From IMG/VR virus record IMGVR_UViG_3300024999_000337, positions 1 through 26,735 of that record: DNA of 26,735 nt; one strand, given 5' to 3'. The translations under genes and the position numbers were made by a program. Shown one piece after another: positions 1-20,850 of the stretch. The stretch comes from a virus. The number at the start of each line of letters is the position of its first letter. The stretch's first letter is position 1. A model generated the notes under the pieces. That model did no database searches and was not told where the DNA came from. It worked only from the letters and a program-made list of their open reading frames with translations.

Positions 1-145
1 TTAAAATAAAATTAGGACAAATATTATTATTTGTAGATGGAGTATTGTTTGGATTATCTTCATCCTCATTTTCTATGTATTGTTTTTCTAATTCTTCATC
101 ATCAATATATTTTTTGTCTAATTGATTGTTTTTAGGTTCGCGTAT
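1..145 (-). CDS. Partial hypothetical protein, N-terminal 48 codons, apparent AUA start
   Basis: The reading frame is open from position 145 to the left edge, so only the N-terminus is visible. The product starts (I/M)REPKNNQLDKK and continues as a hydrophilic segment rich in Asp, Glu and Asn; I do not recognise it. A consensus promoter (210-182) and an AAGGA ribosome-binding site (157-153) lie directly upstream, which argues that the gene is real. An in-frame TAA sits just before ATC-ATA, and no ATG, GTG or TTG follows within the visible part. The start must therefore be ATA (145-143, 7 nt after AAGGA) or ATC (148-146, 4 nt after it). Function unknown. Confidence 0.55.
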   Translation of the reverse strand, partial: MREPKNNQLDKKYIDDEELEKQYIENEDEDNPNNTPSTNNNICPNFIL

Positions 146-157
146 GATTTATTCCTT

Positions 158-179
158 CTTTCTATTTGGCTTTCTATTT
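158..179. repeat. Tandem 10-bp direct repeat in the leader of the left-edge gene
   Basis: CTTTCTATTT occurs at 158-167 and again at 170-179, 12 nt apart. It lies between the predicted transcription start and the ribosome-binding site of the left-edge gene. It could be an operator half-site pair or chance in AT-rich DNA. Confidence 0.4.
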
Positions 180-181
180 GT

Positions 182-210
182 AGTATACAATTATTTTTTC
201 ATTCTGTCAA
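182..210 (-). promoter_or_regulatory. Consensus sigma-70-type promoter
   Basis: On the minus strand a perfect -35 box TTGACA (210-205) is followed by a 17-nt spacer and a -10 box TATACT (187-182). It points at the left-edge partial gene, whose ribosome-binding site is about 25 nt downstream of the -10. It lies just after the stop codon of the 219-434 gene. Confidence 0.85.
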
Positions 211-218
211 GATATATT

Positions 219-434
219 TTACCTTCTCCTAAAATAAATTGGATTTAGTTTTCTTGCTTTCCATAATATATTAAGATATAATTTTTGATATAGTGGTATT
301 CCATTCCATACATTTTCTCCGATTAAAAACTTTGGATTTAATTTATCAAGAAATTTTACAATTTTATCTTTCTCTTGTTGTGACATAGCATCGTCATAAG
401 GTTTATTTAAACTACGTTTTCCTCTGGTAATTAT
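219..434 (-). CDS. Small basic hypothetical protein (71 aa), apparent AUA start
   Basis: This 71-codon frame contains KRSLNKPYDDAMSQQEKDK and ends IYFRRR before TAA at 221-219. It is Lys/Arg-rich and I do not recognise it. The AGGAG at 447-443 is 8 nt before ATA (434-432), followed by ATT and ACC. The first ATG is internal (codon 17) and has no Shine-Dalgarno site. The frame is closed by TGA upstream of the ribosome-binding site. The best start is therefore ATA. A copy of the recurrent intergenic motif lies directly upstream (459-488), and a consensus promoter for the next gene lies immediately downstream. Confidence 0.6.
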   Translation of the reverse strand: MITRGKRSLNKPYDDAMSQQEKDKIVKFLDKLNPKFLIGENVWNGIPLYQKLYLNILWKARKLNPIYFRRR

Positions 435-458
435 ATTTATCTCTCCTTTTTCTCAAAT

Positions 459-488
459 ATTGACACCAAATTAGAATTTGATCATGAT
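459..488 (-). promoter_or_regulatory. Recurrent intergenic motif, copy 1
   Basis: On the minus strand it reads ATCATGATCAAA, then TTCTAA and TTTGGTGTCAAT. It belongs to a family with copies at 611-636, 1514-1541, 4425-4451 and a weaker one near 7412-7440. It lies just before the ribosome-binding site of the 219-434 gene. It may be a regulator binding site; no function is assigned. Confidence 0.5.
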
Positions 489-517
489 TTTTATATTGAT
501 GTTTTGATTTTGGGTAA

Positions 518-564
518 ATTAGTGCTTGTAAAGTATTGATTTATAAGGGTTTACAAGCACTAAT
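518..564. repeat. Perfect 15-bp inverted repeat (stem-loop)
   Basis: ATTAGTGCTTGTAAA (518-532) pairs exactly with 550-564 across a 17-nt loop. It lies about 80 nt after the methyltransferase stop at 646. In the direction of transcription the stem is followed by TTTACCCAAAATC, which is not a proper U-run, so it is a stem-loop rather than a clear intrinsic terminator. Confidence 0.75.
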
Positions 565-610
565 TATGGAGATATTGAAAAATCTATATTTTTAGGTATT
601 TTTGCCATAT

Positions 611-636
611 TGCGACCAAACAACGGTTTTATCATG
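611..636 (-). promoter_or_regulatory. Recurrent intergenic motif, copy 2
   Basis: The minus strand reads ACATGATAAAACC, then GTTG and TTTGGTCGCA. It lies 10 nt after the stop codon of the 646-1464 methyltransferase. It shares the preceding AATATAAAAA with copy 1, which extends the similarity beyond the core. Confidence 0.5.
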
Positions 637-645
637 TTTTTATAT

Positions 646-1464: not shown

Positions 1465-1513
1465 ATACTTTCCTCCTTTTTATTATATATATATCATTAT
1501 TATTTTATTCAAA

Positions 1514-1541
1514 TCATGATAAAACCAAAATTTGGTGTTAA
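1514..1541 (+). promoter_or_regulatory. Recurrent intergenic motif, copy 3
   Basis: The plus strand reads TCATGATAAAACC, then AAAA and TTTGGTGTTAA. It lies about 50 nt upstream of the methyltransferase start at 1464. In the direction of transcription it is followed by TTGAAT and an AT-rich TATATATATAAT, which could form a weak -35/-10 pair, so the motif would lie at or above a promoter. Confidence 0.55.
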
Positions 1542-1546
1542 TTTTT

Positions 1547-1614
1547 GATAAATTTTATCTATATATGGTATGTATTTAGTTTGCATACCATATATATAGT
1601 AGATAAATTTTATC
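1547..1614. repeat. Stem-loop flanked by 13-bp direct repeats
   Basis: A perfect 13-bp inverted repeat (TATATATGGTATG at 1560-1572 with 1584-1596, 11-nt loop) is bracketed by two copies of GATAAATTTTATC (1547-1559 and 1602-1614). Because that sequence is nearly palindromic, the stem can extend outward with one mismatch and a small bulge. It starts about 10 nt after the stop of the 1624-2706 gene. The core ACCATATATA...GTAG also appears in the stem-loop at 5409-5456. Confidence 0.75.
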
Positions 1615-1623
1615 ATCCTCTAA

Positions 1624-2706: not shown

Positions 2707-2727
2707 ATTATTATATTCTCCTTTTTA

Positions 2728-3259: not shown

Positions 3260-3958
3260 TTATTGAGGTCTAAATTCTTCATACAATTCTATTTCACCAT
3301 TAATTCTTTCTATTACTGCTTCTTCATAAGTATCACAATATTTTAAAACTTTATTCATAATTTTTGCTTGCCATTTTCCTTTTTCTATTCTATAGAAAAC
3401 TCCTCTAAATCCACTTTTATTATTTTTCTGTAACCCATGATTATGTGCATTTTGTTTTGGTGTAGCAATTCTTAAATTATCTCTCATATTATTTCTTTTA
3501 TTTCTATCTTTATGATCGATATGAATATTTTTATCTGTAATATCTAATATATATCTATGGATTCTTATTATTTTATTATTTATTCTTGAACAAATATATC
3601 CTTTTTTATCTTCATACCAACAATGACAATTAATTATATCAAAATCAATTGTATTTATATAAAATATTTTATTAGTATTTGAAGTCCATAATTTCACAAT
3701 ATTATTATCTAATATTATATATTTATTTTCTTTTTTATTTGCTAATTGTCTTTCTTTTTGATAACATCCACAACTTACTATTTTATTGCTTATTAAATGA
3801 TCTTGTCTAATAGATAATATTTCTTTATTTCCACAATTACATTTGCAAAACCAAAAATGATGTTTATTGTGATTTATAGATTTTTCTTTATCCCATTCTA
3901 TTACTGTTAATCTGCCAAATTTTTCATTAATTAATTCTCTTTTATATGTTTTTGGCAA
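3260..3958 (-). CDS. HNH homing endonuclease with AP2 DNA-binding domain
   Basis: A 232-aa free-standing HNH endonuclease of the phage homing type. Residues 1-66 carry a Cys-rich DNA-binding segment (CKCNCGN, then SCGC). The HNH core at about 134-173 contains IHRY, HIDHKDRNKRNN and LRIATPKQN, with the expected His, Asn and His residues. An AP2-like domain follows at 180-232 (SGFRGVFYR, KWQAKI). The start is TTG at 3958 with AAGGAG 10 nt upstream; it overlaps the end of the NADAR gene by 28 nt. Such genes spread by cutting alleles that lack them, and it sits behind the NADAR gene as an inserted cassette. Confidence 0.9.
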   Translation of the reverse strand: MPKTYKRELINEKFGRLTVIEWDKEKSINHNKHHFWFCKCNCGNKEILSIRQDHLISNKIVSCGCYQKERQLANKKENKYIILDNNIVKLWTSNTNKIFYINTIDFDIINCHCWYEDKKGYICSRINNKIIRIHRYILDITDKNIHIDHKDRNKRNNMRDNLRIATPKQNAHNHGLQKNNKSGFRGVFYRIEKGKWQAKIMNKVLKYCDTYEEAVIERINGEIELYEEFRPQ

Positions 3959-4389: not shown

Positions 4390-4424
4390 ATATATTCTCC
4401 TTTATTATTTTTATAAATGTCATA

Positions 4425-4451
4425 TCATGATAAAAGCGATGTTTGGTGTTT
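4425..4451 (+). promoter_or_regulatory. Recurrent intergenic motif, copy 4
   Basis: The plus strand reads TCATGATAAAAGC, then GATG and TTTGGTGTTTA. It fills most of the gap between the stop of the D12 methyltransferase (4460) and the NADAR start (4389). It lies in the same position and orientation relative to the downstream gene as copy 3. Confidence 0.5.
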
Positions 4452-4459
4452 ATTTTATT

Positions 4460-5329
4460 TTAATAATTAGTTATTAATACTTCTAATGTTGTGTTTTTAT
4501 TTTTGTTTTTTGCTTGATGATTACAATTCCCATATGTATGATTTAAATAATTTACTTTATATTTCTCAGACCATTCTTTTAATATATCATTCGATTTACC
4601 TTTGTTCTTTAATACATTAGATAAAGCAAATTTAATATTCTTATTATCTAGATTATCTAATAAATTTAAAAGTTTATATTCTTCTATTTCGTTCCATCCT
4701 TTGAATCCTCTTTTTCCATCATTGTAATTGCATGATGTTATTAAATATGGAGGATCGCAATATACAAAATCATTTGATGTTAAATTATCTAAATTAACAT
4801 TTATATAATCATTAGATATAAATTTTATATTTTTATTTTTTATTGTTTCTGTAAATTTTATTAAATTGCTTCTTATTCTATCATTAAAATCACTTCTATT
4901 TCTTCCAAATGCCTGATTATATTCTTGTTTATTATTAAATCTTGCTTGATTATTAAATGAAAAACAAATTAATACAAAGAAATCTAAAATGAATTTATTT
5001 TTATTATATATTTCTCTTAATTTATTATATCCTTCTAAATTAATTCTAGAAAGATTAAATTCATTTATTCTAGTGTCTATGTACCGAATTATTTTATCTA
5101 TATCATTGTTTTTTAAATATTCGTATAATTCAATAACATAGTTTATTATATCGTTGCAAACAATTTCATTTGCTTTTACATTTACACCTACATCACATCC
5201 TCCACTAAATAAATCAATAAACTTATTTATTTTCTCAGGGAAGTAAGGTAATATTTGTGGAAGTAATTTAAACTTTCCACCTGTATAATTTAAAGGACTT
5301 TTTATTAAGTTTTCTTTGATAAATTCGAT
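4460..5329 (-). CDS. D12-class DNA adenine N6-methyltransferase (Dam-like), non-ATG start
   Basis: The frame is open from about 5340 to TAA at 4462-4460 and gives about 289 aa. It starts IEFIKENLIKSPLNYTGGK and has the hallmarks of alpha-class adenine methyltransferases: NYTGGKFKLLP at the N-terminus (SAM site), motif I FIDLFSGG (residues 37-44), a Q/N-rich middle with FNNQARFN, and catalytic DPPY at 192-195. The frame has no ATG, GTG or TTG near its 5' end. AGGAGG at 5344-5339 is followed in frame by ATT (3 nt away), AAT (6 nt) and ATC (9 nt). I chose ATC at 5329; ATT at 5335 is the alternative. No restriction enzyme is nearby, so self-protection of phage DNA is the likely role. Confidence 0.85.
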   Translation of the reverse strand: MEFIKENLIKSPLNYTGGKFKLLPQILPYFPEKINKFIDLFSGGCDVGVNVKANEIVCNDIINYVIELYEYLKNNDIDKIIRYIDTRINEFNLSRINLEGYNKLREIYNKNKFILDFFVLICFSFNNQARFNNKQEYNQAFGRNRSDFNDRIRSNLIKFTETIKNKNIKFISNDYINVNLDNLTSNDFVYCDPPYLITSCNYNDGKRGFKGWNEIEEYKLLNLLDNLDNKNIKFALSNVLKNKGKSNDILKEWSEKYKVNYLNHTYGNCNHQAKNKNKNTTLEVLITNY

Positions 5330-5408
5330 ATTAATATTCCTCCTAACAATTATATTTATATTATGTTATTTTTGAATAAAACGAATCTTTTGACATGATT
5401 TTATTTTA

Positions 5409-5456
5409 ATACCATATATAGTAGTTAATTAGTTTTCTGACTACTATATATGGTAT
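5409..5456. repeat. Perfect 17-bp inverted repeat (stem-loop)
   Basis: ATACCATATATAGTAGT (5409-5425) pairs exactly with 5440-5456 across a 14-nt loop. It begins 2 nt after the stop of the 5458 gene. The sequence after the stem in the transcribed direction (TAAAATAAAATC) has no U-run. Its stem shares ACCATATATA and GTAG with the stem-loop at 1547-1614. Confidence 0.8.
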
Positions 5457-5457
5457 A

Positions 5458-5658
5458 TTATTTTTGCTCATTATATACTAACGGACAATTACTATGTCTA
5501 TTTTTAATATGAATATATTCTCCTATATAATCATCTCTTTTATTTGTTGAATATTTTTTAATATTGCAAAAACATTTATCTTCCCAAAAATAACTAAAAT
5601 AACACTCTAAACATGATTTAGGTAATACTTCATCTACAATTACTTTTAATATTTTTAT
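5458..5658 (-). CDS. Small Cys-rich hypothetical protein (~66 aa), apparent AUA start
   Basis: The product reads (I/M)KILKVIVDEVLPKSC followed by LECYFSYFWEDKCFCN and ends near CPLVYNEQK. The 'LPKSCxxC' opening followed by spaced Cys residues is familiar from short phage proteins of unknown function and probably forms a zinc site. The frame extends upstream to TTG at 5688, but no Shine-Dalgarno site precedes that TTG. AAAGGA at 5673-5668 abuts the only in-frame ATG (5667) with zero spacing and stands 9 nt before ATA (5658). I therefore prefer ATA at 5658. A perfect stem-loop follows the stop codon directly. Confidence 0.6.
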   Translation of the reverse strand: MKILKVIVDEVLPKSCLECYFSYFWEDKCFCNIKKYSTNKRDDYIGEYIHIKNRHSNCPLVYNEQK

Positions 5659-5734
5659 ATTAATCATTCCTTTCGTTAATTTTCTCAAAATTTAAAGTTT
5701 GAATAAAAGACATAATCTATTAAAATTATCTCCT

Positions 5735-6282: not shown

Positions 6283-6843
6283 TCATTCTCCCATTTTCCC
6301 ACTATATTTTCCATACCAATCCCACAATTCCAATACAGAATATCTTTTATGCAAATCATCAATCCATTTCTTATATCCTTTACTATAATCTTTTATTTCC
6401 ATTACCTCACTCCAATTACTTAACCAAGTTGAATGTAATTTTTTAGGTATATTGCACCATCTTAATGTTTGAATAATATTTGTATTACTCTCAATTCCAA
6501 CAATAGTTAACATATTGCTTTTAATTTTTGATATTCTATCATCTTTATATATTGTAGAATCGAATTCTATTTCAAATGTAATTCCTTTATTGTGCTTGTA
6601 TTTAATTAATGCTAAAAGATAATTTCCTTCTTGAATTAATTTAGTTTCTATTATTTCTGTTTTAAGTATCTTTATTTCTTCTTGTGTAATATTATCGAGA
6701 TAAATATTTAAAAATAAATCTCCATTTGAATTACACTCTAAAATACTTGCAGTTTGATTTTTCATATTCCTACCTTGAAACAAAGTGTATGGTGTGCCTA
6801 CTTCTAGTTTTGTAAAATATTTTTGATTATTAGATTCTGACAT
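6283..6843 (-). CDS. Hypothetical protein, 186 aa
   Basis: Not recognised. The N-terminal half (KLEVGTPYTLFQGRN, SILECNSNGDLFLNIYL) looks like a beta-barrel with a Gly-containing turn. The C-terminal quarter is Trp-rich (STWLSNWSEV, ELWDWYGKY) and may form an amphipathic helix. The start is ATG at 6843 with AGAAGG 7-8 nt upstream. It belongs to the small-gene operon 7369-5458. Confidence 0.7.
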   Translation of the reverse strand: MSESNNQKYFTKLEVGTPYTLFQGRNMKNQTASILECNSNGDLFLNIYLDNITQEEIKILKTEIIETKLIQEGNYLLALIKYKHNKGITFEIEFDSTIYKDDRISKIKSNMLTIVGIESNTNIIQTLRWCNIPKKLHSTWLSNWSEVMEIKDYSKGYKKWIDDLHKRYSVLELWDWYGKYSGKMGE

Positions 6844-6946
6844 TTATATACCTTCTTTCTGTTGTAATTAAGATTGGATAGATTAAGGTAATTAGATAGG
6901 TATAAATATTTTACTATAAGATAATCGCAATAGCAACTAATTATGT

Positions 6947-7369
6947 TTAATCTGCACAACTATCACATTTACACGATCCTGTATAATCAGCAAATAATTC
7001 TCCACATACAGAACATGTATCTAAACAATCATCACAGAAATAATCATTATATTGCTCATATCTATTATGTGGTTTTAATTCTGATAATTTTAAAAGTTTG
7101 CCACAATCTGAACATTGTTTATATTCATCTAATTCTTCTATTTCAATTTTTAGTTTAACTTTATTACCTTTGAAAATATCACCAGGATATAATCTAACCT
7201 TATCTCCAATTGGTTTATAATTATCAAAATCTGAATCATCTATTTCAACATAATCAAATACATCTGGTTCTTTACCTTTCATTCTTTTAAATGTTTCTAT
7301 GTCAACATCCCAACAGAAACACTCATAGTCACCTGAATTGATACCTTCAAATTCAATTGTTTTTTTCAT
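6947..7369 (-). CDS. Hypothetical zinc-finger protein (140 aa), first gene after the 7626-7654 promoter
   Basis: The N-terminal two thirds is a charged beta-rich region with GDKVRLYPGDIFKGNKVK, suggesting an SH3-like barrel. The C-terminus has four CxxC pairs (CSDCG, CDDC, CSVCG, CDSC), i.e. two treble-clef or zinc-ribbon sites near residues 92-138. Such proteins bind nucleic acids or act as transcription cofactors, but I cannot name a family. The start is ATG at 7369 with AAGGAGAG upstream. As the first gene behind a strong promoter with a long leader it may be expressed early. Confidence 0.75.
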   Translation of the reverse strand: MKKTIEFEGINSGDYECFCWDVDIETFKRMKGKEPDVFDYVEIDDSDFDNYKPIGDKVRLYPGDIFKGNKVKLKIEIEELDEYKQCSDCGKLLKLSELKPHNRYEQYNDYFCDDCLDTCSVCGELFADYTGSCKCDSCAD

Positions 7370-7696: not shown

Positions 7697-10600
7697 CTAA
7701 GCACTAAATTTTATTAACATATCTTTTAAATGTGTCTTTCTAGTTAAGTTTGCTCTCTTTTTTAATGCTCGTTTAATAGTTTCTGGTTCTCCTAAATGAT
7801 AACATCTGTGTTCTGCTCTAGTTTGACCAACATAAATTAAATTAGCATTTAACATGTATGTATGTGCTCTAGGAGTGATTAGAATAATATTTTTACATGC
7901 CCCTCCTTGTGCTTTATATGTGGAAATACTATATGCTAAATTCAAATCTAATGCAGATTCATGATTATATACTATTTTTAAATTATCATATTGAACAACC
8001 ATATAATATTTATCTATTAAAATTATTTTACCAATATCACCATTACTAATAAATGTCGTTGGATTATTCTCATCAAAAATATCATAACTTTCAGAATTAT
8101 AAATAATAGATTTATAATTATTTTTTGTTTGAATAACTATATCATCTAAATAATAAGTTATATCTCCAGATTTAAGTTTAATATCACTACCACAATTTTT
8201 ATTTGCTATTTTTTGAATCATTTCATTTATTTTTGTTGTTCCATATTCTCTAATATTGTATGAAGAGAGTATCAAGATATCTTCTGGTATTACACCATTA
8301 TTCATTAATTTAGTATATAAATTTTTGACAGTAGATAATATTTTTTCTTGTTGCATTGGCATATAAATATAACCTTTATCTTCACCAAAAATACTAGTGT
8401 TTTTAGTATCTTCTATCCAATTTTCCCCTAATCTTGTTTTTGTAGCAATAGTTAAAATACCGCCAATACCATATCTAAATACTTTTGTTAATGAAGTTAC
8501 TGGTATTACGCATGATTCAACCATATCATGTAATACATTTCCTGCTCCTACAGATGGGATTTGAAATCCATCACCTATGAATAATAATTTTGTTCTTGAA
8601 AAATCTATTGCTTCAATTAATCTTTTCATTAAAAATATATCAGTCATAGACATTTCATCAACTGCTATAACATCAAATGGTACTTTATTTTCTTCGTTGT
8701 AATACCATTCTGGATATTCTGATGGATTAAACATATAACCTCTATGAATTGTGGCAGCATCCTCGCCTGTATATTTTGCTAACACTTTCGATGCCCTTCC
8801 AGTTGGGCAAAGCAAATAAAATGATTTCCCTAATTTTTTCATTAAAGATATAATTGCTTGTGTAGTAAATGATTTTCCAGAATTCCCTGTTACAAATATT
8901 TTATTATTCCTTCTTAAAACTAACATATTACTAGGTACTGTGAAACAATATTTATATCCGTCTAACGTTTTATATTTAGTAATTGGTGTTTTTGTATGAT
9001 TTTCTCTATCATCATGACATAAACCAACTAAATTTCTTTTAGTAAAACATACTCTATAATCAATTGATTTTCTAATATATATTTTTCCAGAAGTTTTATA
9101 TTCTTGATTTGTTCTGTCTTGAATTTGAATAGTAGATTTATAACCACATACCGAACCAACAAATTGTATAAAATCAGCATCAGATTTTATAGAAGTAAAA
9201 TATCCATCTTTATCTTCAAATGCTCCATCCCAATAAAATATTTCATCGTAGATAATTTTAAATTGTTCTTTACTACAATTATACCACTTATCTGTGAAAG
9301 TCTTTTCATTATCTAAATATGTAAATTTATATCTTTTATATCCTTCTGTTCCTTTAATTAAATCATACTCTATATTATTTTTTTTAAGTAAAAATTCAAT
9401 TCTATCTTTCTTCCTTTGTTTTTTTACATTTATATAACAAGCCGAAGGATTTGTGCCACAGAAACTTCCATCTGCTTTTATTGCTACCTTTAATCTTATT
9501 TCCCATTCATTATACGGCAATCCTTCACCTTGATAATTAAATGTAGTAATAAATCTACCTTTAAAACCTGTGTTTTCATGATTTTCTCTAACTTCCTTAA
9601 ATGTTTTATGATATAAATTATTTTTTGATGTAATATAATATACATTATGTTCATCTGATAAACACTGATCCAAACCATATTTAGTTTTGAAATGCCATAA
9701 ATAATCAGATGGATATTTGTGATATTCTAATGGATTAACTAATTCAGAACTTCCATCTTCATTATACTGTAATACTTTATCATTATTTTTGTAATTTGAT
9801 ATTTTAACCCATTCTACTCCATTAAAATATTCTGTATCACAATCTACGCACCCTGCAAAACCATTTAAAATACTAATATTTTCTTTATAAAACATTTTAA
9901 CTGCATCAAATTGTTCATCTGTTAATTTATCTTCATTAACACTATTAAAATCATCAATATTAATTTCATCCCATTTATTTTTTGCTTTTAATCCTTCAAT
10001 AATTTTCATTGCTACATATAATTCTGTTACATATGTTTCTAATATTGATACAGTTTTACTTTCTTTATCAATATATAACTTATCTGATTTAATTGCTTCA
10101 GCTAATTTATCACTACATTCTGGTACTAATTTATCAAGTGATTTTCTCAAATCTACAATTGACATTCTTGTATGACCATTATTTTCATTTTCTTCTAATA
10201 AATATTTTATTGCTGCAATATTACGTTGAACAGAAGTTTTTATATCAAAATCAAAATATATTAAAGGCTTTTCTCTTTTTTGTTTTTTTAATTTTGATTC
10301 TTTATCTAATTCAAGAATAATACTATCTGCATTTTTAAAATTTATTTTTGATAAAGAACATAAAGATTTATATGGTTCTCTTTGTATTTCTTCTTTAATT
10401 TTTTGTGAAGAAGGATATTTGTCATACAATTTTTTAATTGTTCTCATATCTATTAATCCTTGAAACATTTCAATTAATTCGGCAAATACAAAATTCTCTT
10501 CAATTTTTTGTCTAATAATATTAAATCTAAATTGTCCTATATTATATAGTTTTTTTAAATCAATATCATCAAGTCTATTATTAATAACTCTATCAACTAT

Positions 10601-10978
10601 ATCTGGATAATTTTCCATAATAGTTTTTACTTGATCATATGTAAGTATTTCAGATAAAAACATTCTTGTAGTATGTTCATTAGTTGGTCTTTCTCTTTGG
10701 ATATGGATAATATGATATCCATATCCACGACCTTTTTTATCTAATTTTTCTTCTGCTTTTACTTTGTAAAATATTCCTAATCCTAATTCATGAATATTTC
10801 CAAGAAGCGAAATATTATTATATATGTTTAGTTTTAAATCAGGATATTTAATTGTATCAATTTCAGCACCATATATTTTACTATTTGTTGTATTATATAC
10901 TAATATTCTAGGTATACAAGTAAATTCTTTAATTATTTTTTCTGGTTTATCCATGTATTCTATTAATACACCATCCAT
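7697..10978 (-). CDS. RecD-like superfamily 1 DNA helicase, intein-containing
   Basis: A 1093-codon frame that gives about 770 aa after removal of a 323-aa intein (residues 377-699). Extein landmarks are the Walker A GFAG^SGKS, split by the intein; CPTGRAS; ATIHRGY; Walker B VDEMSM (Asp774-Glu775); IGDGFQIPSVG; and the C-terminal STYKAQGGA motif. These are typical of RecD2/TraA-type 5'-3' helicases. The N-terminal 370 residues are an accessory region with helix-hairpin-helix-like character. It follows and overlaps the polymerase gene. The start could be ATG at 10978 (no Shine-Dalgarno site) or ATA at 10963. The latter overlaps the polymerase stop as TAATA and has GGATGGTG 5 nt upstream, the same context as the DnaB-like gene. 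Confidence 0.9.
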   Translation of the reverse strand: MDGVLIEYMDKPEKIIKEFTCIPRILVYNTTNSKIYGAEIDTIKYPDLKLNIYNNISLLGNIHELGLGIFYKVKAEEKLDKKGRGYGYHIIHIQRERPTNEHTTRMFLSEILTYDQVKTIMENYPDIVDRVINNRLDDIDLKKLYNIGQFRFNIIRQKIEENFVFAELIEMFQGLIDMRTIKKLYDKYPSSQKIKEEIQREPYKSLCSLSKINFKNADSIILELDKESKLKKQKREKPLIYFDFDIKTSVQRNIAAIKYLLEENENNGHTRMSIVDLRKSLDKLVPECSDKLAEAIKSDKLYIDKESKTVSILETYVTELYVAMKIIEGLKAKNKWDEINIDDFNSVNEDKLTDEQFDAVKMFYKENISILNGFAGCVDCDTEYFNGVEWVKISNYKNNDKVLQYNEDGSSELVNPLEYHKYPSDYLWHFKTKYGLDQCLSDEHNVYYITSKNNLYHKTFKEVRENHENTGFKGRFITTFNYQGEGLPYNEWEIRLKVAIKADGSFCGTNPSACYINVKKQRKKDRIEFLLKKNNIEYDLIKGTEGYKRYKFTYLDNEKTFTDKWYNCSKEQFKIIYDEIFYWDGAFEDKDGYFTSIKSDADFIQFVGSVCGYKSTIQIQDRTNQEYKTSGKIYIRKSIDYRVCFTKRNLVGLCHDDRENHTKTPITKYKTLDGYKYCFTVPSNMLVLRRNNKIFVTGNSGKSFTTQAIISLMKKLGKSFYLLCPTGRASKVLAKYTGEDAATIHRGYMFNPSEYPEWYYNEENKVPFDVIAVDEMSMTDIFLMKRLIEAIDFSRTKLLFIGDGFQIPSVGAGNVLHDMVESCVIPVTSLTKVFRYGIGGILTIATKTRLGENWIEDTKNTSIFGEDKGYIYMPMQQEKILSTVKNLYTKLMNNGVIPEDILILSSYNIREYGTTKINEMIQKIANKNCGSDIKLKSGDITYYLDDIVIQTKNNYKSIIYNSESYDIFDENNPTTFISNGDIGKIILIDKYYMVVQYDNLKIVYNHESALDLNLAYSISTYKAQGGACKNIILITPRAHTYMLNANLIYVGQTRAEHRCYHLGEPETIKRALKKRANLTRKTHLKDMLIKFSA
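8882..9850 (-). mobile_element. Intein in the RecD-like helicase (323 aa, degenerate LAGLIDADG)
   Basis: The intein begins with Cys377 (CVDCDTEYFNG, block A) and ends FVTGN at Asn699; the next extein residue is Ser700. The block B-like region includes CLSDEHNVYY. An endonuclease-like centre is visible as LKVAIKADGSF (about 496-506) and FYWDGAFED (581-589), which resemble the two LAGLIDADG motifs. The penultimate residue is Gly instead of His, a known variant in phage inteins. It interrupts Walker A exactly between Gly and Ser, so the helicase is inactive until splicing. Confidence 0.9.
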
Positions 10979-13900
10979 TCATCTAAAATTTGTTCGTCTT
11001 CATTACTTCTCTCCCATTTACCGCCTACGTTCTTCATTTTCTTCTGTATTTTGAAGTTAGTGATTTGTAAAATATCAAATAATTTAAAAGAATTTTCAAC
11101 GAAATATTTACTATTTTTTACTTTAGTTTTTAATTCTTCACCTGTTTTTAAATTTCTTAAAGTGATATAAGGCTTAGATTTGTCTTTATAACACTTATAT
11201 TCAGTAATGATATATAAACTACTATCTGCTTGCTCATATTTTACTGTTGTATATTCAAGAAATTCTACTTGAAATTTGACTTCTTCTTTAACTGATAATG
11301 TTTTATTCTCTATTAATTCCGAGAATTCTTTAATATATGAGATAATATCAATATCTTTATATATTTTATCAGTTATTTTTTGAGTATGTTTCAGTAATAT
11401 GTCTATATTTAATCCTATTTTTTCTGCTTTTTCTTTTTTAATTTGTTTTGATTCTCCTATTTGTTCATATATTTCTAGTATTTCTAATAGTTTTTTATTT
11501 TTACCATATTCACTAAAGAAGTTTAATCCTGTTAAGATTCTTAATTGCCTGGAATTAGTAGATGTTTTTTCTTTTATATTTTTGATTATATCTATATAAT
11601 TTGTATATATATTTTCTTTAGCAAGTTGATATAAATCTATTCCTACTTGTGAATTAAGAAATTTAATAGAAGAAACTGATTTATAAATTGTTTTACTTTC
11701 TCTTTCAAATGAATATGTATCAGTAGATTTACCAAATTTAATATCAGATAATTTAATATCAAAATAAGGTAATTCCAATGTAATCTTATGAGTTTTTTCT
11801 GAATCTGATTCATATTCATTTAATATAATAGTATAATATTCAAGTGGATAATTTGCTTTTAAATATGCACCGTATAGACTATCCCATGCTACGGATAAAC
11901 TATGACTGGCATTAAAAGCATATGAAACAGCATTTTCTATAATTTCCCATAAATCTTCAAATCTTTCATCATTACCTACATTATTAATAAAACCAATACG
12001 TAATTCTTGTTTTAGTTTTATCAATTCTTCTTCTTTAAATTTTTTCTTTGCAATCATTTTGATAATATCATATGTATGATCTTCTTTTAATCCACACCAA
12101 ACAAGGAATGCCATAATTGATTCTTGATATAACATAAAATGATAAGATGGTTTTAATATTTCATCAATTTCATCTACACCAGTTGAATATTCTTGTCTAT
12201 TCAAAAATGTATTTAATAAACTAGCAAATCCTGGGCGAATAGCTGCCACAAAACCACTAATCTCTGCAACATTAGAAGGGCAATACCTTTTTACTAATGC
12301 TGTACTTATATCTGTATCTACTTGATTTAGTGTTGCAGTTAATCCATCTTTATATAAATTCCATACTTTTTCATCAAGCAATTGTTTTAATTCTTTGATA
12401 TTAGGGATAGGTTTATTTAATAATTTAAAAGTATCTGATATAATTTTCCATACTCTAACAGTAAGAAAATCATTTTTTAAATATTTCCAAACATCAGATG
12501 TATATCCATCTATACAAGCACAAATTTGATCTCCTATTTTTATTAATCCTAATTCTTTTGATATTGGTTTATTAAGCATAACAAAACTACATGGACTAGG
12601 TGAAATACTTTCAATAACTCCTTGAAACATTTTTGATTCTTCAATTAAATCTTTCCATTGTGGATCTTTTGTGTATTTATCTAATTCTTTTGCTACTTCA
12701 TTAAATTGATCCATAGATAAACCATATGCTCTACATAAATTTCTAAATGCAGATGATTCTTTCATAAAACCAATAGCATACATATAATAAACATTATCTT
12801 CACCAAGAATATCTTTTGATGCTTTAATTGCTGGTTCTACATCTGCCCAATTATAATCTATATCTGGTAATGATTTAGATTCTAAAATTCTTGAAACAGT
12901 CATAAATCTTGTTGGATATAATGGCACTTCAGATTCAAATCTATCAATTTCAGTAAATCCTAATAATTTATTTATATAGAAACTCACAGCCGAATTATGT
13001 ACTATCATATTATTAATTAAATAATTATGTTGATTTTGAACAGTAATATCATATACTTTTGTTTTTGTTTTTGGTAATAATTTTATTTCTTTTATTGGTA
13101 AATACCAATAATTATTATCAGATAAAATTCTTTCTGATTTTTTAAAAGAATGTTCTGCATTAGGATTTATTCTTAATTTATAACTTTCTTTACATTTATA
13201 ATTATTTATATCTTTCCATTTTGGTCTTATTATTAAACTATTTACACCTTCATTTGTCATTAAACATAATATCTTATAAGCATTAATAATTGATTTAGAA
13301 GTATTGTCAAAACTCAATCTATATTTTTCTTTATCACATCCATCTGATAATTTTAATCCATTTAATAATCCTGATAAATTTTCTTTATTTTGATTAAACC
13401 ATTTTGGATTAAATTGTTTTTCTTTATATTTTTTAGATATAAATAAATCATTTCTAATAAAATTAGAAAATATATTTGAATTTATACATAATTGTATTAA
13501 ATTTTTATTTTTACTTTTATATTCATAAATATCAATATTTAATCTATTAGCAATTTCTTCAAATATATTTCTATTTATTTTATCTTTTTCACTTATACTA
13601 TTAATAGCTAAACCTATTGTATAATATCTATTTATAGGTGCAAATCCATCTCCATACATTAATCCAATAAATTCATTAAATGTCTTATCTAATTTTATAA
13701 ATCTAGTTATTTTTTTTGTTCTTTTTTGTTTAATATATTCCACATATTCATCTTGGGTTTTAAAAGGAAATAATTCATAAAATTTATTTTTTACCCAAGT
13801 TTTTCTTTGAAATAAATTATCTTCACCATTTGCAAATTTTTCTATTATACTTTTACCAACGCCTAATATTTTTGATACTTCTTTTGGTGAATATTTATAT

Positions 13901-15369
13901 TTATTATTCATATAAGGTGAATATTCATAAATATATTCTTCATCATATTCATATTCAAAAATATTATAATCAACTAAATCTATATATTTAGGCAATAAAT
14001 CAGTATTTTTAATTTTAGGAACACATACATAATCTTCTTTTTTTATATTTTTTGCTTCAATCCAATCAATATTATTATTTCTATTAATTAATATCTTATG
14101 ATCTAATGTACATATTGTTGGATAATGTTTATCTGTCCCATATAAATGTTTAATTTGGATTAATTCTTCATCAATATCATATTGCATAGTATTTATAACT
14201 TTATTAAATTCGCCATCTTTAGTAATTACTTCATCACCAATTATAATATCTTTAATAGACTTTATTGTATTTTTTGTATGTATTAATGAATCTTCAGTAA
14301 AACAACCCCTGCCCGACCTAGTAAGAATACCTCCATATTCATTTACTGCTTTATCTATAATTCTTTCATTAAGAAGAAAATAATCTGCCATATTAGTTTT
14401 TTTGATAATATCATATTCAAATTTAATACCTTCTATATATTCCTTTTGTCTTTTAGGATTTATATTTTTCTTTTCTTCATTCCATTTATTAACTATTATA
14501 GATTTTAATTTTTTATTAGAATCTTCATTGGGATATATAGTTGGCATTTTTATTTCTTTATTAAAAAATAATTCTTCACAATTATCAAAAATAAGAGTAT
14601 TTTTAACTGCCTCTTTTGCTTGTATTTCAGATAAAATATTTTGTTTTTTATATCTGTCTAATATTGTATCATAATCAGGATAATCTAAAATAAATCCATC
14701 TTCTTCATCATATTTTAATCCTTTGCCTTTTAAAAACATATCTCTTTTATAACTATCTTCAGGATAAATGTAATGTGAATCATTTGCATGAATAATTTCA
14801 ATGCCATATTGATTACTTATTTCTAACATTTTCTGATTATAATTTGCTTGATATTGATGAACATGTTCCTGTACTTCTATGTAAAAATTCTTATTAAAAT
14901 GTTTTAATATTGGTTCTAAAAATATACTTTGAATTTCTTCATTCTTTAATATACCAGCAACACAAGCAGAAGTAATAATAAAATTATTTGGATTAAGTGA
15001 TAATAATAATTTCAAATCAATCCTTGGTTTATAGTAAAACCCTGTTTTATTTGATTCAGACATAATTTCATTTAATTGATAAAAAGCATCTTGATTTTTT
15101 CCAACAATAATAATATGACTATTACTATTGTCTTTTTCAAATCTATCTTTAACAATATATAATTCTGCACCATATATCATTTTTAAATTATTTTTTTGGC
15201 ACATATCATACATTTCCAAAAAATTACCAGTCCAACCATGTTGTGTAGTAAACATGGTTGTATGGTTTAATTCTTTTGCTCTATCTATGTAATCTTGTGG
15301 TTTTACTACACAATCTAATGTACGAATATTTGAATAATGATCGTGTTTATGATAATTATTATATCTCAT
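10963..15369 (-). CDS. dnaE: DNA polymerase III alpha subunit (DnaE-type), intein-containing
   Basis: A 1468-codon gene, giving about 1031 aa once the 437-aa intein (residues 356-792) is removed. The N-terminal PHP domain (residues 1-210) shows YHKHDHYSN, TTQHGW and HANDSHY. The C-family polymerase core starts with RSGRG^SAVSFYI, followed by the catalytic PDIDYNWAD (Asp836 and Asp838). A third acidic site probably lies in CIDGYTSDVWKYLKNDF. AFNASHSLSVA is the conserved motif before the finger region. A C-terminal OB-like part is present (YIITEYKCYKDKSKP). It lacks the exonuclease insertion of PolC. The ATG at 15369 has a strong AAGGAGG. It is the phage's own replicative polymerase, between the nuclease and the RecD-like helicase. 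Confidence 0.95.
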   Translation of the reverse strand: MRYNNYHKHDHYSNIRTLDCVVKPQDYIDRAKELNHTTMFTTQHGWTGNFLEMYDMCQKNNLKMIYGAELYIVKDRFEKDNSNSHIIIVGKNQDAFYQLNEIMSESNKTGFYYKPRIDLKLLLSLNPNNFIITSACVAGILKNEEIQSIFLEPILKHFNKNFYIEVQEHVHQYQANYNQKMLEISNQYGIEIIHANDSHYIYPEDSYKRDMFLKGKGLKYDEEDGFILDYPDYDTILDRYKKQNILSEIQAKEAVKNTLIFDNCEELFFNKEIKMPTIYPNEDSNKKLKSIIVNKWNEEKKNINPKRQKEYIEGIKFEYDIIKKTNMADYFLLNERIIDKAVNEYGGILTRSGRGCFTEDSLIHTKNTIKSIKDIIIGDEVITKDGEFNKVINTMQYDIDEELIQIKHLYGTDKHYPTICTLDHKILINRNNNIDWIEAKNIKKEDYVCVPKIKNTDLLPKYIDLVDYNIFEYEYDEEYIYEYSPYMNNKYKYSPKEVSKILGVGKSIIEKFANGEDNLFQRKTWVKNKFYELFPFKTQDEYVEYIKQKRTKKITRFIKLDKTFNEFIGLMYGDGFAPINRYYTIGLAINSISEKDKINRNIFEEIANRLNIDIYEYKSKNKNLIQLCINSNIFSNFIRNDLFISKKYKEKQFNPKWFNQNKENLSGLLNGLKLSDGCDKEKYRLSFDNTSKSIINAYKILCLMTNEGVNSLIIRPKWKDINNYKCKESYKLRINPNAEHSFKKSERILSDNNYWYLPIKEIKLLPKTKTKVYDITVQNQHNYLINNMIVHNSAVSFYINKLLGFTEIDRFESEVPLYPTRFMTVSRILESKSLPDIDYNWADVEPAIKASKDILGEDNVYYMYAIGFMKESSAFRNLCRAYGLSMDQFNEVAKELDKYTKDPQWKDLIEESKMFQGVIESISPSPCSFVMLNKPISKELGLIKIGDQICACIDGYTSDVWKYLKNDFLTVRVWKIISDTFKLLNKPIPNIKELKQLLDEKVWNLYKDGLTATLNQVDTDISTALVKRYCPSNVAEISGFVAAIRPGFASLLNTFLNRQEYSTGVDEIDEILKPSYHFMLYQESIMAFLVWCGLKEDHTYDIIKMIAKKKFKEEELIKLKQELRIGFINNVGNDERFEDLWEIIENAVSYAFNASHSLSVAWDSLYGAYLKANYPLEYYTIILNEYESDSEKTHKITLELPYFDIKLSDIKFGKSTDTYSFERESKTIYKSVSSIKFLNSQVGIDLYQLAKENIYTNYIDIIKNIKEKTSTNSRQLRILTGLNFFSEYGKNKKLLEILEIYEQIGESKQIKKEKAEKIGLNIDILLKHTQKITDKIYKDIDIISYIKEFSELIENKTLSVKEEVKFQVEFLEYTTVKYEQADSSLYIITEYKCYKDKSKPYITLRNLKTGEELKTKVKNSKYFVENSFKLFDILQITNFKIQKKMKNVGGKWERSNEDEQILDEWMVY
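12994..14304 (-). mobile_element. Intein in DnaE (437 aa, LAGLIDADG homing endonuclease)
   Basis: It starts with Cys356 (CFTEDSLIHTKN), has block B TLDH (421-424), LAGLIDADG motifs FIGLMYGDGFA (567-577) and LSGLLNGLKLSDG (665-677), block F VYDITVQNQHNYL, and ends VHN at Asn792, followed by extein Ser793. All residues for canonical class 1 splicing are present (Cys1, TxxH, His-Asn, Ser+1). It sits in the GRG^S motif of the polymerase active site. The gene composition is even more AT-rich than the exteins. Confidence 0.95.
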
Positions 15370-16533: not shown

Positions 16534-17414
16534 AAACATTTCTCCTTATTTAATGTTTCATCATATTGATTTTGTAATTTTATATACATTTTTTCTTTAA
16601 TAAAATTGTCAATAAAATTAAATTCATTATTTAAATAATAATCTAATATTTCTTTCTTATTTTTATGATATTCATTATATGCATCTAATGGATCTGAAAA
16701 ATGACCAATAAATATAGATTTATTATCACGATTTACTCTTGCTCTAATTTTTCCATTATGTAATCCTACACCTTCGTAGCCAGTAGTATTTGTAATCTGT
16801 TTGTTTATAAAAAAGCTATTTAATTTTTCAGGTATTAGACAACAATTATTTAGATTATATATTTTATTATTATGTAAAATTATATCTTTATCTAAATTAA
16901 ATTTATATTTATAACCATGTTCAATCATTTGTTTATATCCAATAATATTTGAAACATCTTTAGAAAAATTAGTCAAAGTTAACCATTCATCACATACAAT
17001 TACATCTTTATATGTTGGATATTTATTTTTATATTCTTCATTGTATGATCTATGTAACATATATCTCCATAATCCATAATAAGGATATTTATTAACACTA
17101 ATACTACCTATATCACCTATTATTCCTACATTATATACAATAGGATAATATCTATCTGTAACACTTCCTGTTTTAATATTACTTTTATGTATATTTACTA
17201 AATAACCTGTATTTATAAATTTACATAAATAATTAGTAGAACCATCTTTATTCTTTTTTATAACATCAATTACAATAAATGAACCACATTTATTACTTTC
17301 AAATATTTTACCAATCCAATTATTTTTATCATTTGTTGTTGCATATTTTAATTTTAAATTATCTTCCAATTTTTTTAATTCTTCTTGTATATCTTCACCT
17401 TTTTTTCTTGTCAT
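16530..17414 (-). CDS. AP2-domain homing-endonuclease-like protein, copy A
   Basis: A ~294-aa protein related to the 18525-19337 product. Shared segments are WIGKIFESNKCGSFIVIDV, CKFINTGY, PIVYNVGIIGDIGS and YYGLWRYMLHRSYNEEY, followed by YPTYKDVIVCDEW; the C-terminus has an AP2-type unit (NTTGYEGVGLH, IGHFSDPLDAYNEYH). In phages this architecture belongs to free-standing homing endonucleases with an HNH-like nuclease centre and AP2 DNA-binding tail, although a clear HNH triad is not seen. ATG at 17414 is 7 nt after GGAG; the TTG two codons earlier is too close. It overlaps the primase by 20 nt and the nuclease by 4 nt, as a cassette fitted into the operon. Confidence 0.8.
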   Translation of the reverse strand: MTRKKGEDIQEELKKLEDNLKLKYATTNDKNNWIGKIFESNKCGSFIVIDVIKKNKDGSTNYLCKFINTGYLVNIHKSNIKTGSVTDRYYPIVYNVGIIGDIGSISVNKYPYYGLWRYMLHRSYNEEYKNKYPTYKDVIVCDEWLTLTNFSKDVSNIIGYKQMIEHGYKYKFNLDKDIILHNNKIYNLNNCCLIPEKLNSFFINKQITNTTGYEGVGLHNGKIRARVNRDNKSIFIGHFSDPLDAYNEYHKNKKEILDYYLNNEFNFIDNFIKEKMYIKLQNQYDETLNKEKCL

Positions 17415-18486
17415 CTGCAATCTCCTTTAAATGTTCTTTATGTTCTTTTTCATCATATTTAACTTTATATTTTAAAAGATAATTAAATATTTTATTATTT
17501 GCATCTGATGGTGATTCTTTTTCTTTTAATAAATCATGTTTATCATATATATAAAATATATTGCGTATTCCATAAAATCTACTACATTCTGAACGTATAT
17601 GTTTTAATGGTATATCTTTATCATAAGCAATCACAATATTGCAATTAATACCAATAAGAATTTTAACTTGTTCATCACTCAAATTATGTGATCCTACTGC
17701 TACTCCTGTTCCATCTAATCTACTATGTCTTTTGAGGACTCCCTTCTCACTTTCGTAAACACAAACATAACCAGAATCTTGTATTGATTTATAATTCTCT
17801 TGTAAACCATATAAATTAATCGTTTTTAAATATGGTTTAAGAGAACAATATTTTACTATATCAAATAAATCATAATTCTTTACTGTAGTTCTACCAATAA
17901 TTCCGATGTAATCATTTTCTTCTCCTGCCCAATATCTAATAGGAATTATAATTCTTTTATGTTTATAACTATAACCTATATTGAATCTTTTACGTGTAAA
18001 TTCTACTATTCCATCTTCTTTTAACCAATCAATATATAACACAGGTTCATACTCTTCAATAATTGTACTATCAAAAATTTCAATATCGTCTATATTTACT
18101 TTGTTTCTTTTACGTTTTACTTTTTTAAATATTTCTAATGGATCTATTATTTTTTCTTCTTGTGATTGTTTTTTATTTTTATTATAATTGTTTTTTAATC
18201 CGAATAATTTATGTAAATATTTAATTCCTTGCACAAATGATAAATTCATATTAAAACATACGAGATTAATTATATTTGCATGTTTACCTATATCTCTTGT
18301 ATGATTAACACAATTTAAATTTTCATCATTATACACATTTATTGCTGTTTTATTATCTCCATCTTTATTTGAACAAGTATAATATCCTTTATTATGATAT
18401 TTAATATGATGACAACCTATTTGTTCAAGAATATATTCTATTTTATTGTTTTCATATATATATTTTTTTAATTCAGTAATTGTCAT
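17395..18486 (-). CDS. DnaG-like primase (CHC2 zinc finger plus Toprim)
   Basis: A 363-aa primase that would synthesise RNA primers for the phage replisome. Its N-terminal zinc finger contains Cys25/His27, Cys38, Cys59 and His62 (GCHHIKYHNKGYYTC, LNCVNHTR). A basic RNA-polymerase-like strand HKRIIIPIR is at 177-185. The Toprim metal site has Glu245 (VYESEKG) and the Asp pair 289/291 (AYDKD). It is shorter than bacterial DnaG because a helicase-binding C-terminal domain is missing. It lies between two related homing-endonuclease-like genes. ATG at 18486 has only a distant AGGTG (12 nt away); a TGA one codon upstream excludes earlier starts. Confidence 0.9.
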   Translation of the reverse strand: MTITELKKYIYENNKIEYILEQIGCHHIKYHNKGYYTCSNKDGDNKTAINVYNDENLNCVNHTRDIGKHANIINLVCFNMNLSFVQGIKYLHKLFGLKNNYNKNKKQSQEEKIIDPLEIFKKVKRKRNKVNIDDIEIFDSTIIEEYEPVLYIDWLKEDGIVEFTRKRFNIGYSYKHKRIIIPIRYWAGEENDYIGIIGRTTVKNYDLFDIVKYCSLKPYLKTINLYGLQENYKSIQDSGYVCVYESEKGVLKRHSRLDGTGVAVGSHNLSDEQVKILIGINCNIVIAYDKDIPLKHIRSECSRFYGIRNIFYIYDKHDLLKEKESPSDANNKIFNYLLKYKVKYDEKEHKEHLKEIADDKKKR

Positions 18487-18524
18487 ATATCAATATATCA
18501 CCTACCTTTACCAATCCAATACAT

Positions 18525-19337
18525 TTACTTTAAACTTTCAATATAATATTCTTTCATTTTTTGCAAACTAGCTATTTTTATTGAAGGCAAAAGAAAATCA
18601 TATTTATTTAACATTTTTATAAGAATATTATATTTGTATTCACAATATATTTTAAATGCTTCTTCGGCTGATTTATAGACTCCTAAATACTTTTTACCCA
18701 AAGCTACTTTATATTTATTTATATTTTTATTATAACTTACTCCCATATATCCTGATGTATTTGTATTAGGTGTTCTACGAAATAAATTATTTATTTCTTT
18801 TGGCACAAAACAACATTGTTCTAAGGTATAAATTTTATTAGAATTATTAACTGCAAAAATATCTTTATCAATTTCAAAGTTAATATTGTTATATTGTTTT
18901 AATTCTTTATAACCTTTAATTTTAGGAACATCATCAACAAAATAATCAAATCTATGCCATCTTTCATCTACAACAACATCTTTATAAGATACTTCAATTT
19001 TATGATATTCTTCATCATAACATCTTTGTAACATTCTTATCCATCTTTCATATTGCTCATGTAATTGTGGATTTTTAATATAACCTATTTTGCCTATATT
19101 ATATACAGTCGGAAATAAACAATCTTTTAATTCTTGTTTTTTAATATTTCCACCAGTTGATAATGTTTCATAACCAGTATTAATAAATTTACATATGTAT
19201 AATTTTTTGTTTTGATATCCTAAACCATGAACTCCTAAAACTATAAAATCACCGTATTTTTTACTATTGAATATTCTACCAATCCATTTTTCTCTATCAT
19301 TATTATTTTCTAAATCTTTATTAATAGAATATACTAT
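18525..19337 (-). CDS. AP2-domain homing-endonuclease-like protein, copy B, apparent AUA start
   Basis: About 270 aa and clearly related to copy A. It has WIGRIFNSKKYGDFIVLG, CKFINTGY, PTVYNIGKIGYI and RWIRMLQRCYDEEY, then a C-terminal AP2-type region (NTSGYMGVSYN, KYLGVYKSAEEAF). It lacks an obvious HNH triad. The frame reaches TTG at 19361, but that codon lies inside the end of the helicase gene and has no Shine-Dalgarno site. GGGAGG at 19351-19346 stands 8 nt before in-frame ATA (19337-19335), which is followed by GTA TAT TCT. I take ATA as the start. It fills the helicase-primase junction. Confidence 0.75.
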   Translation of the reverse strand: MVYSINKDLENNNDREKWIGRIFNSKKYGDFIVLGVHGLGYQNKKLYICKFINTGYETLSTGGNIKKQELKDCLFPTVYNIGKIGYIKNPQLHEQYERWIRMLQRCYDEEYHKIEVSYKDVVVDERWHRFDYFVDDVPKIKGYKELKQYNNINFEIDKDIFAVNNSNKIYTLEQCCFVPKEINNLFRRTPNTNTSGYMGVSYNKNINKYKVALGKKYLGVYKSAEEAFKIYCEYKYNILIKMLNKYDFLLPSIKIASLQKMKEYYIESLK

Positions 19338-19350
19338 TTTGTTTACCTCC

Positions 19351-20850
19351 CTACCAATCAACTGCTATATGAGTAATACCTATCTCTTTCATTGTATTTA
19401 ATGACATATTATGCTCTATTACAATTTGAAATGAATTAGCACTGCCTTCTCTATTTTTTATAATAAATACAATTTGATATCTTTTATCTTTATCTAATTT
19501 AACAGGAAGTTTTGTACGTCCATTTTTTCCTTCTAAACGATAAACTTTTAATTCATGCTTTCCACCTTCATATTCATCTTCTAAAATATCTCTTATCATA
19601 ATACATGTACTTGTTGGATCAATAATATTTTTCGCTACACCACTATTATCTTGTGTATAATATCTTTGTCTTGCACTTCCTTTTGATAATTGAAATGTAC
19701 AAGTTATATGTAAATTTTTTGCTTCTGGTTTAACAACATCATTTATATCAACCATTGCTTGCTGCATTTCTAACCATGAATTATTTGAAACTTTTCCTGC
19801 ATCCATTTTAAATGTATCAAGTATAAAATATTTAACACCCATATTTGCATATTTTTTAATAACTTTAATTGCATTAGAAGTTTGATATTTTTTAAATGGT
19901 ATAAGTGTAATTATATGATTACTTGCTTGCTCTTTTAACCATTTAGCACTATCTTTTAATATTTGTTTTATTTCTGGTGTATATTTTCCATCTCTAACAA
20001 TATACTTCTGCAATTCTTTTTTTAATATATTATTAGCGATCCATACTAAGAATTCTCTTTGATATTTTTTTCTACCATCTTCATTTAACATTATAACAAC
20101 TTTTTCTTTTTCTTTAATTATACTAGGTATAATAGCAGATCTTGCAAATGTACTCTTCCCTACATTTGATAAACCACCAATTAAAGTAATATTGCCTATT
20201 AACTGACCTCCAGTTTCTTTATTAATCATAGGCATATTATAATATGGTAAACCTACTGCTAAACCTTCATCTAATTCTTCAATTAATTCATCTATTCCAT
20301 CTGTAATACAATAACTTTTAATTTCACCTTCTACATTAATAAATATGTGATTTAATTGTACATCATAAAATTCATATATTTGTTCTGCAGACATATCCAC
20401 AAACTCTTTAATCTTATCATAAACAGGGAATCTTCTTGCTAACAATTGCAATACAGCGTTCCATTTATGTAATTCATTAACATATCCATTTATATTATCA
20501 ATATTAATATATTCTTTTGATTTATCAATGGTGTTATAACCACCATATTCTTCATATTTTTGTTTTAGTTTTAAATGTTTCTCTAAATATAAACCAATAG
20601 TAATATCATCTAATGTTTTTTTATTTTCTTTTACAATAATATCATAACCTATAGCAAAATAAACTCTCCATACATTATCTGTAAAACTTTTTATATTTAG
20701 ATTATCATATGTGAAGTATAAATCTGGATTTTTGTAAAGGATACTTACTATATTGGCCTCGCAAGCAAGTTTATATTCTTGTACCTTCTTACTTGATTTT
20801 ATTAATTCAATCTCAAGAGGTGTTAATTCTTTTTTATTTTTTTCTGCCAT
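19351..20850 (-). CDS. dnaB: DnaB-like replicative DNA helicase
   Basis: About 499 aa. The N-terminal domain (residues 1-180) has the DnaB-type helical start, with CEANIVSILYKNPDLY matching the conserved 'E..vLg.ll..p' segment. The RecA-like domain carries Walker A GGLSNVGKST (225-234), Walker B YFILDTF (342-347), and the later QLSKGSARQRYYTQDN and IIDPTSTCIMIRDI segments typical of DnaB motifs H3 and H4. It unwinds the fork and should pair with the primase two genes downstream. The ATG at 20850 has GGATGGTG 5 nt upstream; the ATG inside that sequence (20865) would lack a ribosome-binding site. Confidence 0.93.
   Translation of the reverse strand: MAEKNKKELTPLEIELIKSSKKVQEYKLACEANIVSILYKNPDLYFTYDNLNIKSFTDNVWRVYFAIGYDIIVKENKKTLDDITIGLYLEKHLKLKQKYEEYGGYNTIDKSKEYINIDNINGYVNELHKWNAVLQLLARRFPVYDKIKEFVDMSAEQIYEFYDVQLNHIFINVEGEIKSYCITDGIDELIEELDEGLAVGLPYYNMPMINKETGGQLIGNITLIGGLSNVGKSTFARSAIIPSIIKEKEKVVIMLNEDGRKKYQREFLVWIANNILKKELQKYIVRDGKYTPEIKQILKDSAKWLKEQASNHIITLIPFKKYQTSNAIKVIKKYANMGVKYFILDTFKMDAGKVSNNSWLEMQQAMVDINDVVKPEAKNLHITCTFQLSKGSARQRYYTQDNSGVAKNIIDPTSTCIMIRDILEDEYEGGKHELKVYRLEGKNGRTKLPVKLDKDKRYQIVFIIKNREGSANSFQIVIEHNMSLNTMKEIGITHIAVDW

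Follow-up and report, generated by a model that had tools for sequence, protein, structure and literature searches.

Do phage genes start at isoleucine codons where a good ribosome-binding site has no ATG, GTG or TTG to serve? The question is raised by IMG/VR record IMGVR_UViG_3300024999_000337, which was taken whole as the window of this analysis (26,735 bases, 23.8% GC) and carries about 25 genes, throughout on the minus strand. An earlier note had read isoleucine-codon starts at six coordinates, all of which proved to be correctly read on that strand. We use AUH for AUA, AUC or AUU and NTG for ATG, GTG or TTG. In most genes of the window a Shine-Dalgarno sequence (SD) of the form AAGGAG(G) is followed after 6–9 nt by ATG or TTG, and at 145, 434, 5329, 5658 and 19337 ATA or ATC takes the place of this start codon in an otherwise equal layout. 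We consider it likely that accessory genes of this phage start at AUA or AUC by strong-SD initiation, tolerated by a permissive clostridial host. The genes concerned would be a Dam methylase, an HNH homing endonuclease and two or three small open reading frames (ORFs), with the following features:

4460–5329, minus strand: Dam-type adenine methylase (PF02086) with an ATC5329 start, from profile match, lack of an NTG and homologue starts
5339–5344, minus strand: SD AGGAGG for ATC5329, 9 nt gap, from the sequence
18525–19337, minus strand: HNH/AP2-type homing-endonuclease-like gene with ATA19337, from tblastn matches to phage HNH endonucleases
19346–19352, minus strand: SD AGGGAGG for ATA19337, 8 nt gap, overlapping the TAG stop of the upstream gene
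2–145, minus strand: ORF starting at ATA145 and cut by the contig end, the weakest gene call
153–158, minus strand: SD GAAGGA for ATA145, 7 nt gap, from the sequence
219–434, minus strand: orphan ORF of 71 amino acids starting at ATA434 (MITRGKRSLNKPYDD...), coding score low but positive
442–449, minus strand: SD AAAGGAGA for ATA434, 7 nt gap, from the sequence
5458–5658, minus strand: small Cys-containing protein with an ATA5658 start and ATG5667 as the alternative, from the SD fit
5668–5673, minus strand: SD AAAGGA for ATA5658, 9 nt gap, from the sequence

Start sites of the methylase and endonuclease genes

A strong SD at normal spacing without any NTG that it could serve was found at 145, 434, 5329 and 19337, and the SDs of all five sites show aligned spacings of 5–9, within the canonical range. 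At the former four positions, the stretch that begins at the SD and extends 36 nt beyond the start codon is free of NTG in every frame; these sites are therefore not explained by a normal start followed by a simple frameshift. The claim that five isoleucine-codon starts lack a workable NTG thus stands for these four, while 5658 is a probable case at which an in-frame ATG5667 had been overlooked. TTG starts are common too, being used by about 5 of 25 genes (26522, 22535, 6271, 3958 and 1464), the ligase gene included.

The Dam gene is the strongest case of the set, and its non-NTG start appears to be forced. The protein matches PF02086 over profile positions 1–250 of 253 (4.4e-37; 128.6 bits against a cut-off of 22), the first profile position corresponding to residue 17 of the ORF as read from 5335. 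The ORF opens at 5365, and not a single NTG occurs between the upstream stop and the first conserved motif, KSPLNYTGGK. The earlier reading had left the choice between ATC5329 and ATT5335; ATC5329 is preferred, ATT5335 being too near the SD (aligned spacing 3). Dam homologues start with ATG at the same place or within a few codons, as in Streptococcus phage Javan105 (MSYIKSPLNY) and Lactococcus phage 949 (MDFIKSPLNY). Among 14 further IMG/VR homologues that were parsed, 13 have an NTG at the start place, and the codon in the window Dam is therefore a real replacement; the remaining one (L129) has a disrupted reading frame, and an ATG can be seen in a different frame. A Terrisporobacter homologue, 50% identical, also lacks an NTG and reads AGGAGGGATTTAT-ATT-AAAGATAAATTAG; in a DNA-level alignment, the matching position of a sister gene from a different Peptostreptococcaceae genome is GGAGGAGAAGTT-ATG-GAAAGAAAATTAG. 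Judged from their sequences, the ATT- and ATG-started Dam genes (L036 and L040) are a natural ATG/ATT pair. On the same kind of evidence, the AUH start is real for at least the Dam gene of the window.

At 19337 an AUH start is very probably real as well. The gene is 38% identical to an ATG-started paralogue at 17414–16530, and the two paralogues flank a conserved gene of the replication region. In related HNH endonucleases an ATA start follows GAGGTGATTAAAAG (G014, also L010 and L026), and the residue of the G014 ATA is occupied by ATG in L017, L009 (copies L011 and L013), L002 and the paralogue of the same phage. The alignment check that had been proposed, whether ATG takes the place of ATA in relatives, thus came out positive for related Dam (L036/L040) and HNH (G014) pairs; for the window Dam itself, the ATGs of homologues are found a few codons away at most.

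The occurrence of AUH in a methylase and a homing endonuclease might reflect selected throttling, in which weak starts are kept to limit harmful products and respond to initiation factor 3 (IF3), as do infC, pcnB and ccpN. AUH recurs in the same two gene classes elsewhere (the Terrisporobacter Dam with ATT, the G014 and L010 HNH genes with ATA), which hints at selection. The AUH starts are also accompanied by strong SDs, and precedents exist in the AUA start of Staphylococcus aureus ccpN (PMC13009471) and in the GTC start of Streptomyces sigR, reportedly under IF3 (PMC5472188). Against selection, however, sister genes in the same window use ATG (the HNH paralogue at 17414) or TTG (the HNH gene at 3958 and the N6-methyltransferase gene at 1464), and nearly all other Dam homologues have an NTG. 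Regulated low-level initiation had been among the causes offered in the earlier note and is conceivable; we regard throttling of the selected kind as a possible but rather unlikely account.

Small open reading frames and the helicase gene

For the three small ORFs an AUH start is likely from the anatomy of the sites. An in-frame TAA lies just upstream of ATA145, and the 48 codons from there to the contig end hold no in-frame NTG. The first in-frame NTG after ATA434 is 16 codons downstream and has no SD. At 5658, ATG5667 could not be served by AAAGGA because it stands directly behind this SD, whereas ATA5658 fits (aligned spacing 7); a TTG further upstream in frame, at 5688, has no SD. Searches of viral contigs and genomes yielded no clear homologue of the 434 protein and no convincing one of the 5658 protein, with marginal genome matches only in both cases. 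A viral-contig search with the 2706 protein gave nothing useful.

Several observations weigh against isoleucine-codon starts. In-frame NTGs lie upstream of two of them, namely TTG19361, which has no SD and is inside the end of the upstream gene, and ATG5667, which abuts its SD (AAAGGA-ATG). The starts at 145, 434 and 5658 are not fixed by homologues (for 145 none were sought), and the ORF of ATA145 is cut by the contig end. Similar automatic calls in Lactococcus phage 949 and at G002:160160 turned out to be frameshifts, and the host is assigned by homology. Some of these points would suit the view that the genes start elsewhere, at an upstream TTG or ATG or at a downstream ATG, or that the ORFs are decayed or are not genes, 434 and 145 being short orphans. 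For Dam, however, a start elsewhere is impossible without loss of the conserved motif, at four of the five sites the sequence immediately behind the SD is devoid of NTG in all frames, and the SDs fit the AUH codons and not the alternatives. We therefore consider starts elsewhere improbable for the set.

The sixth gene, for which an ATA overlapping the polymerase stop had been proposed, is of a different kind:

7697–10978, minus strand: RecD-like helicase, ATA10963 start unsupported, from in-frame ATGs and homologue N-termini

ATA10963 was rejected as a start. It is flanked by in-frame ATGs at 10978 and 10954, and the N-termini of homologues align near 10954. The helicase also contains about 320 extra residues (approximately 377–697) just before the AAA domain that are not found in relatives. 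This segment is probably a second intein; Pfam gave no intein match there.

Frequency of putative AUH starts and integrity of the sequence

Near the starts of the window, 13.7% of in-frame codons are AUH, so that at least one AUH would fall within the two-codon interval served by an SD with a chance of about 0.26; five out of five would be expected by chance with a probability of about 0.001. The same script, applied to 1452 genes of other phage contigs, found 27 strong-SD genes without an NTG. Fourteen of these 27 have an AUH in the SD interval, where about seven were expected (binomial, 0.003). The rate in the window is 3/24 by the strict rule against 14/1452 in the other phages (Fisher, 0.002) and 5/25 after curation by hand (Fisher, 9e-6, a hand count against an automatic count); this comparison is post hoc, its P values coming from a window picked for this very feature, which also weighs against the isoleucine-codon reading. 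At least one of the 14 other calls is a proven frameshift, and the true AUH rate elsewhere is therefore at most about 1%. The mode of initiation itself was already known, and the novelty lies in its density: about 5 of 25 genes compared with about 1% elsewhere. Literature searches for AUA starts in phages gave nothing useful.

Two calls in other phages were discarded once they had been set against relatives. ATC6721 of Lactococcus phage 949 was rejected: in the gene at 6650–7014 of this phage (L079) one extra A shifts the frame relative to phages P1048, AM4, LW81 and WRP3. This frameshift near the gene start accounts for the shorter annotation of the gene. G002:160160, with one extra G compared with L002, was rejected as well; it belongs to the non-AUH calls. 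Plausible AUH starts, for which no homologue decides, are the ATT codons at 29123 and 70640 and the ATA codons at 193875 and 30978 (GIY-YIG-like) in G002, ATA at 58601 in G014 and ATT at 16595 in L021. In Clostridioides phage AR1086-1 (C. difficile; L078 39538), a possible ATA start with AAGGAG was seen at 89538 on the minus strand. The annotated coding sequence begins at an ATG 44 codons downstream; the site is common to two near-identical phages, and a third relative diverges.

A density of this kind might also mean that AUH is a routine start class of the phage lineage, used by about one fifth of its genes and exploiting permissive clostridial initiation or a loosening induced by the phage during infection; the genes would then be switched or tuned as a group by way of start-codon discrimination. 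We regard this as speculative and quite improbable.

Could the sequence or the code have been altered instead? For ALTERNATIVES, where window genes have an internal ATA, relatives show Ile in 44% and Met in 2.7% of cases (for ATT, Met in 2.4%); each of the 13 conserved Met columns is ATG, and none is ATA. With internal ATA reading as Ile and absent from the conserved Met columns, a code in which AUA reads Met was rejected, and so was a global ATG-to-ATA alteration. An error, an editing event or a modified base might conceivably have turned individual ATG codons into ATA in a single metagenome contig. An exact DNA scan found no second copy of the 5329 start site, and close protein-level scans found none for 434 and 5658. 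For 19337, however, this explanation is mostly refuted by a second IMG/VR contig (3300025011_000465, L203), which matches window positions 26735–18321 (8,415 bases) with six single-nucleotide polymorphisms (SNPs) and is identical around ATA19337 in 1,617 of 1,617 bases, ATA included. ATA19337 is thus identical in two strains; orthologues of the other AUH sites were not found. In addition, ATG and ATA exchanges between the window and L006 are balanced (3 versus 5), ATC5329 is no product of a G-to-A change, and ATT and ATA starts occur in homologues elsewhere. An altered sequence, as the earlier note had suggested among other causes, is thus disfavoured and very improbable. The second contig (IMGVR_UViG_3300025011_000465) begins exactly at window base 26735, and its six SNPs cluster at 21137–21170, within 34 nt of one gene.

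Another suggestion had been a change in initiation encoded by the phage, through a variant initiator tRNA or an IF3-like or anti-IF3 protein. Most of the phage genome probably lies outside the window, and the AUH density is unusual, which would leave room for such a factor. On the other side, the window contains no tRNA gene, infC was found neither in the window nor in the virus relatives searched, and a 230-kb relative, of which about 229 kb were read, has a single tRNA-Thr. Most genes still start at ATG or TTG, and permissiveness of the host would suffice. The suggestion thus found no support, and we give it very little credence.

Proposed initiation in a permissive host and gene content of the window

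For strong-SD initiation in a permissive host, we infer the following course of events. An SD of this strength at normal spacing would set the AUH codon in the ribosomal P site, where the ordinary initiator fMet-tRNA of the host would pair with the first two bases. IF3 would reject the third-base mismatch weakly, fMet would be inserted, and the protein might be made at a reduced yet useful level with no special phage factor required. Changes from ATG to ATH could persist owing to AT drift, to genes that are dispensable or whose products are needed in low amounts, and to permissive clostridial initiation.

Reporter data from clostridia and S. aureus make this the simplest reading. Expression of gusA from AUU, AUA or AUC reached 40–100% of AUG in C. 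sporogenes and C. butyricum with one 5′ untranslated region and 5–20% with another, compared with 0.04–3% in E. coli with the first region (PMC9680021). The phage genes share the AUH starts with this synthetic reporter and differ from it in being plausible natural counterparts, with a presumed host. In S. aureus, strong SDs precede the starts of infC, ccpN and citZ (AUA) and of cvfC1 (AUU), and the output of ccpN, citZ and cvfC1 is about 10–30% of that from AUG (PMC13009471). Here, as in the phage, a strong SD offsets a weak AUH codon, although these are host genes whose starts have been mapped experimentally. Streptomyces sigR, whose GTC start is reportedly repressed by IF3 (PMC5472188), resembles the phage genes in its non-NTG start and Gram-positive background and differs in the codon, the GC-rich host and its role as a stress sigma factor.

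As a positive control, eight infC genes of Peptostreptococcaceae, the probable host family, were parsed by motif. Seven of the eight lack an NTG, and all eight show ATT after a strong AGGTGT-type SD (TTGGAGGTGT in seven, AGAGGTGT in one; GGAGGTG in seven), which is the AUU start long known for IF3. The autoregulated infC of E. coli, S. aureus and Peptostreptococcaceae, starting at AUU or AUA, shares with the phage genes the strong SD, the AUH codon and the lack of an NTG alternative. In the host, however, this start belongs to a single conserved gene that has a reason for feedback, whereas the phage would use such starts in several unrelated accessory genes with no known feedback. Switches from AUG to AUU are very rare (1 of 61,358 reconstructed AUG starts; PMC5622118).

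Gene finders restricted to ATG, GTG and TTG truncate or drop AUH genes; the window Dam would lose its first conserved motif. The window genes are plausible natural examples for the re-annotation of clostridial genomes urged by the gusA study (PMC9680021), including AUG-to-AUH homologue pairs. If the density holds genome-wide, the phage would be a natural test of how strictly IF3 controls start codons in clostridia and of whether phages exploit the looseness.

The source would be a large, very AT-rich phage of a Gram-positive, probably clostridial host. It is most closely related to IMG/VR phages with sizes of up to 230 kb (72% in the polymerase) and then to Clostridioides, Lactococcus, Geobacillus and Psychrobacillus phages, and the window Dam is nearest to genes of Streptococcus phages and Peptostreptococcaceae genomes. 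These phage and Dam relatives therefore make a clostridial host likely. The window's gene products include a DnaE-type polymerase that contains an intein, an NAD-dependent ligase and the RecD-type helicase with its insertion. Further products are a KaiC-like ATPase (in DnaB position), a PD-(D/E)XK nuclease, a NADAR protein, two DNA methylases (PF02086 and PF01555) and several homing-endonuclease-like proteins.

The intein of the polymerase (10966–15369) matches PF14890 at residues 387–792, and most relatives lack it. The alignment with Lactococcus phages 949 and P1048 covers nearly the whole intein-bearing polymerase, and these phages may carry an intein too. Inverted repeats that are nearly perfect (ACCATATATAGTAGT..ACTACTATATATGGT and others like it) lie between accessory genes at 5405–5460, 1555–1610 and 530–575 and are possibly terminators. 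A motif containing ACACCAAA and ATCATGAT recurs 5′ of accessory genes at 460–490, 1510–1545 and 4415–4440 and may be a promoter or an operator of the phage.

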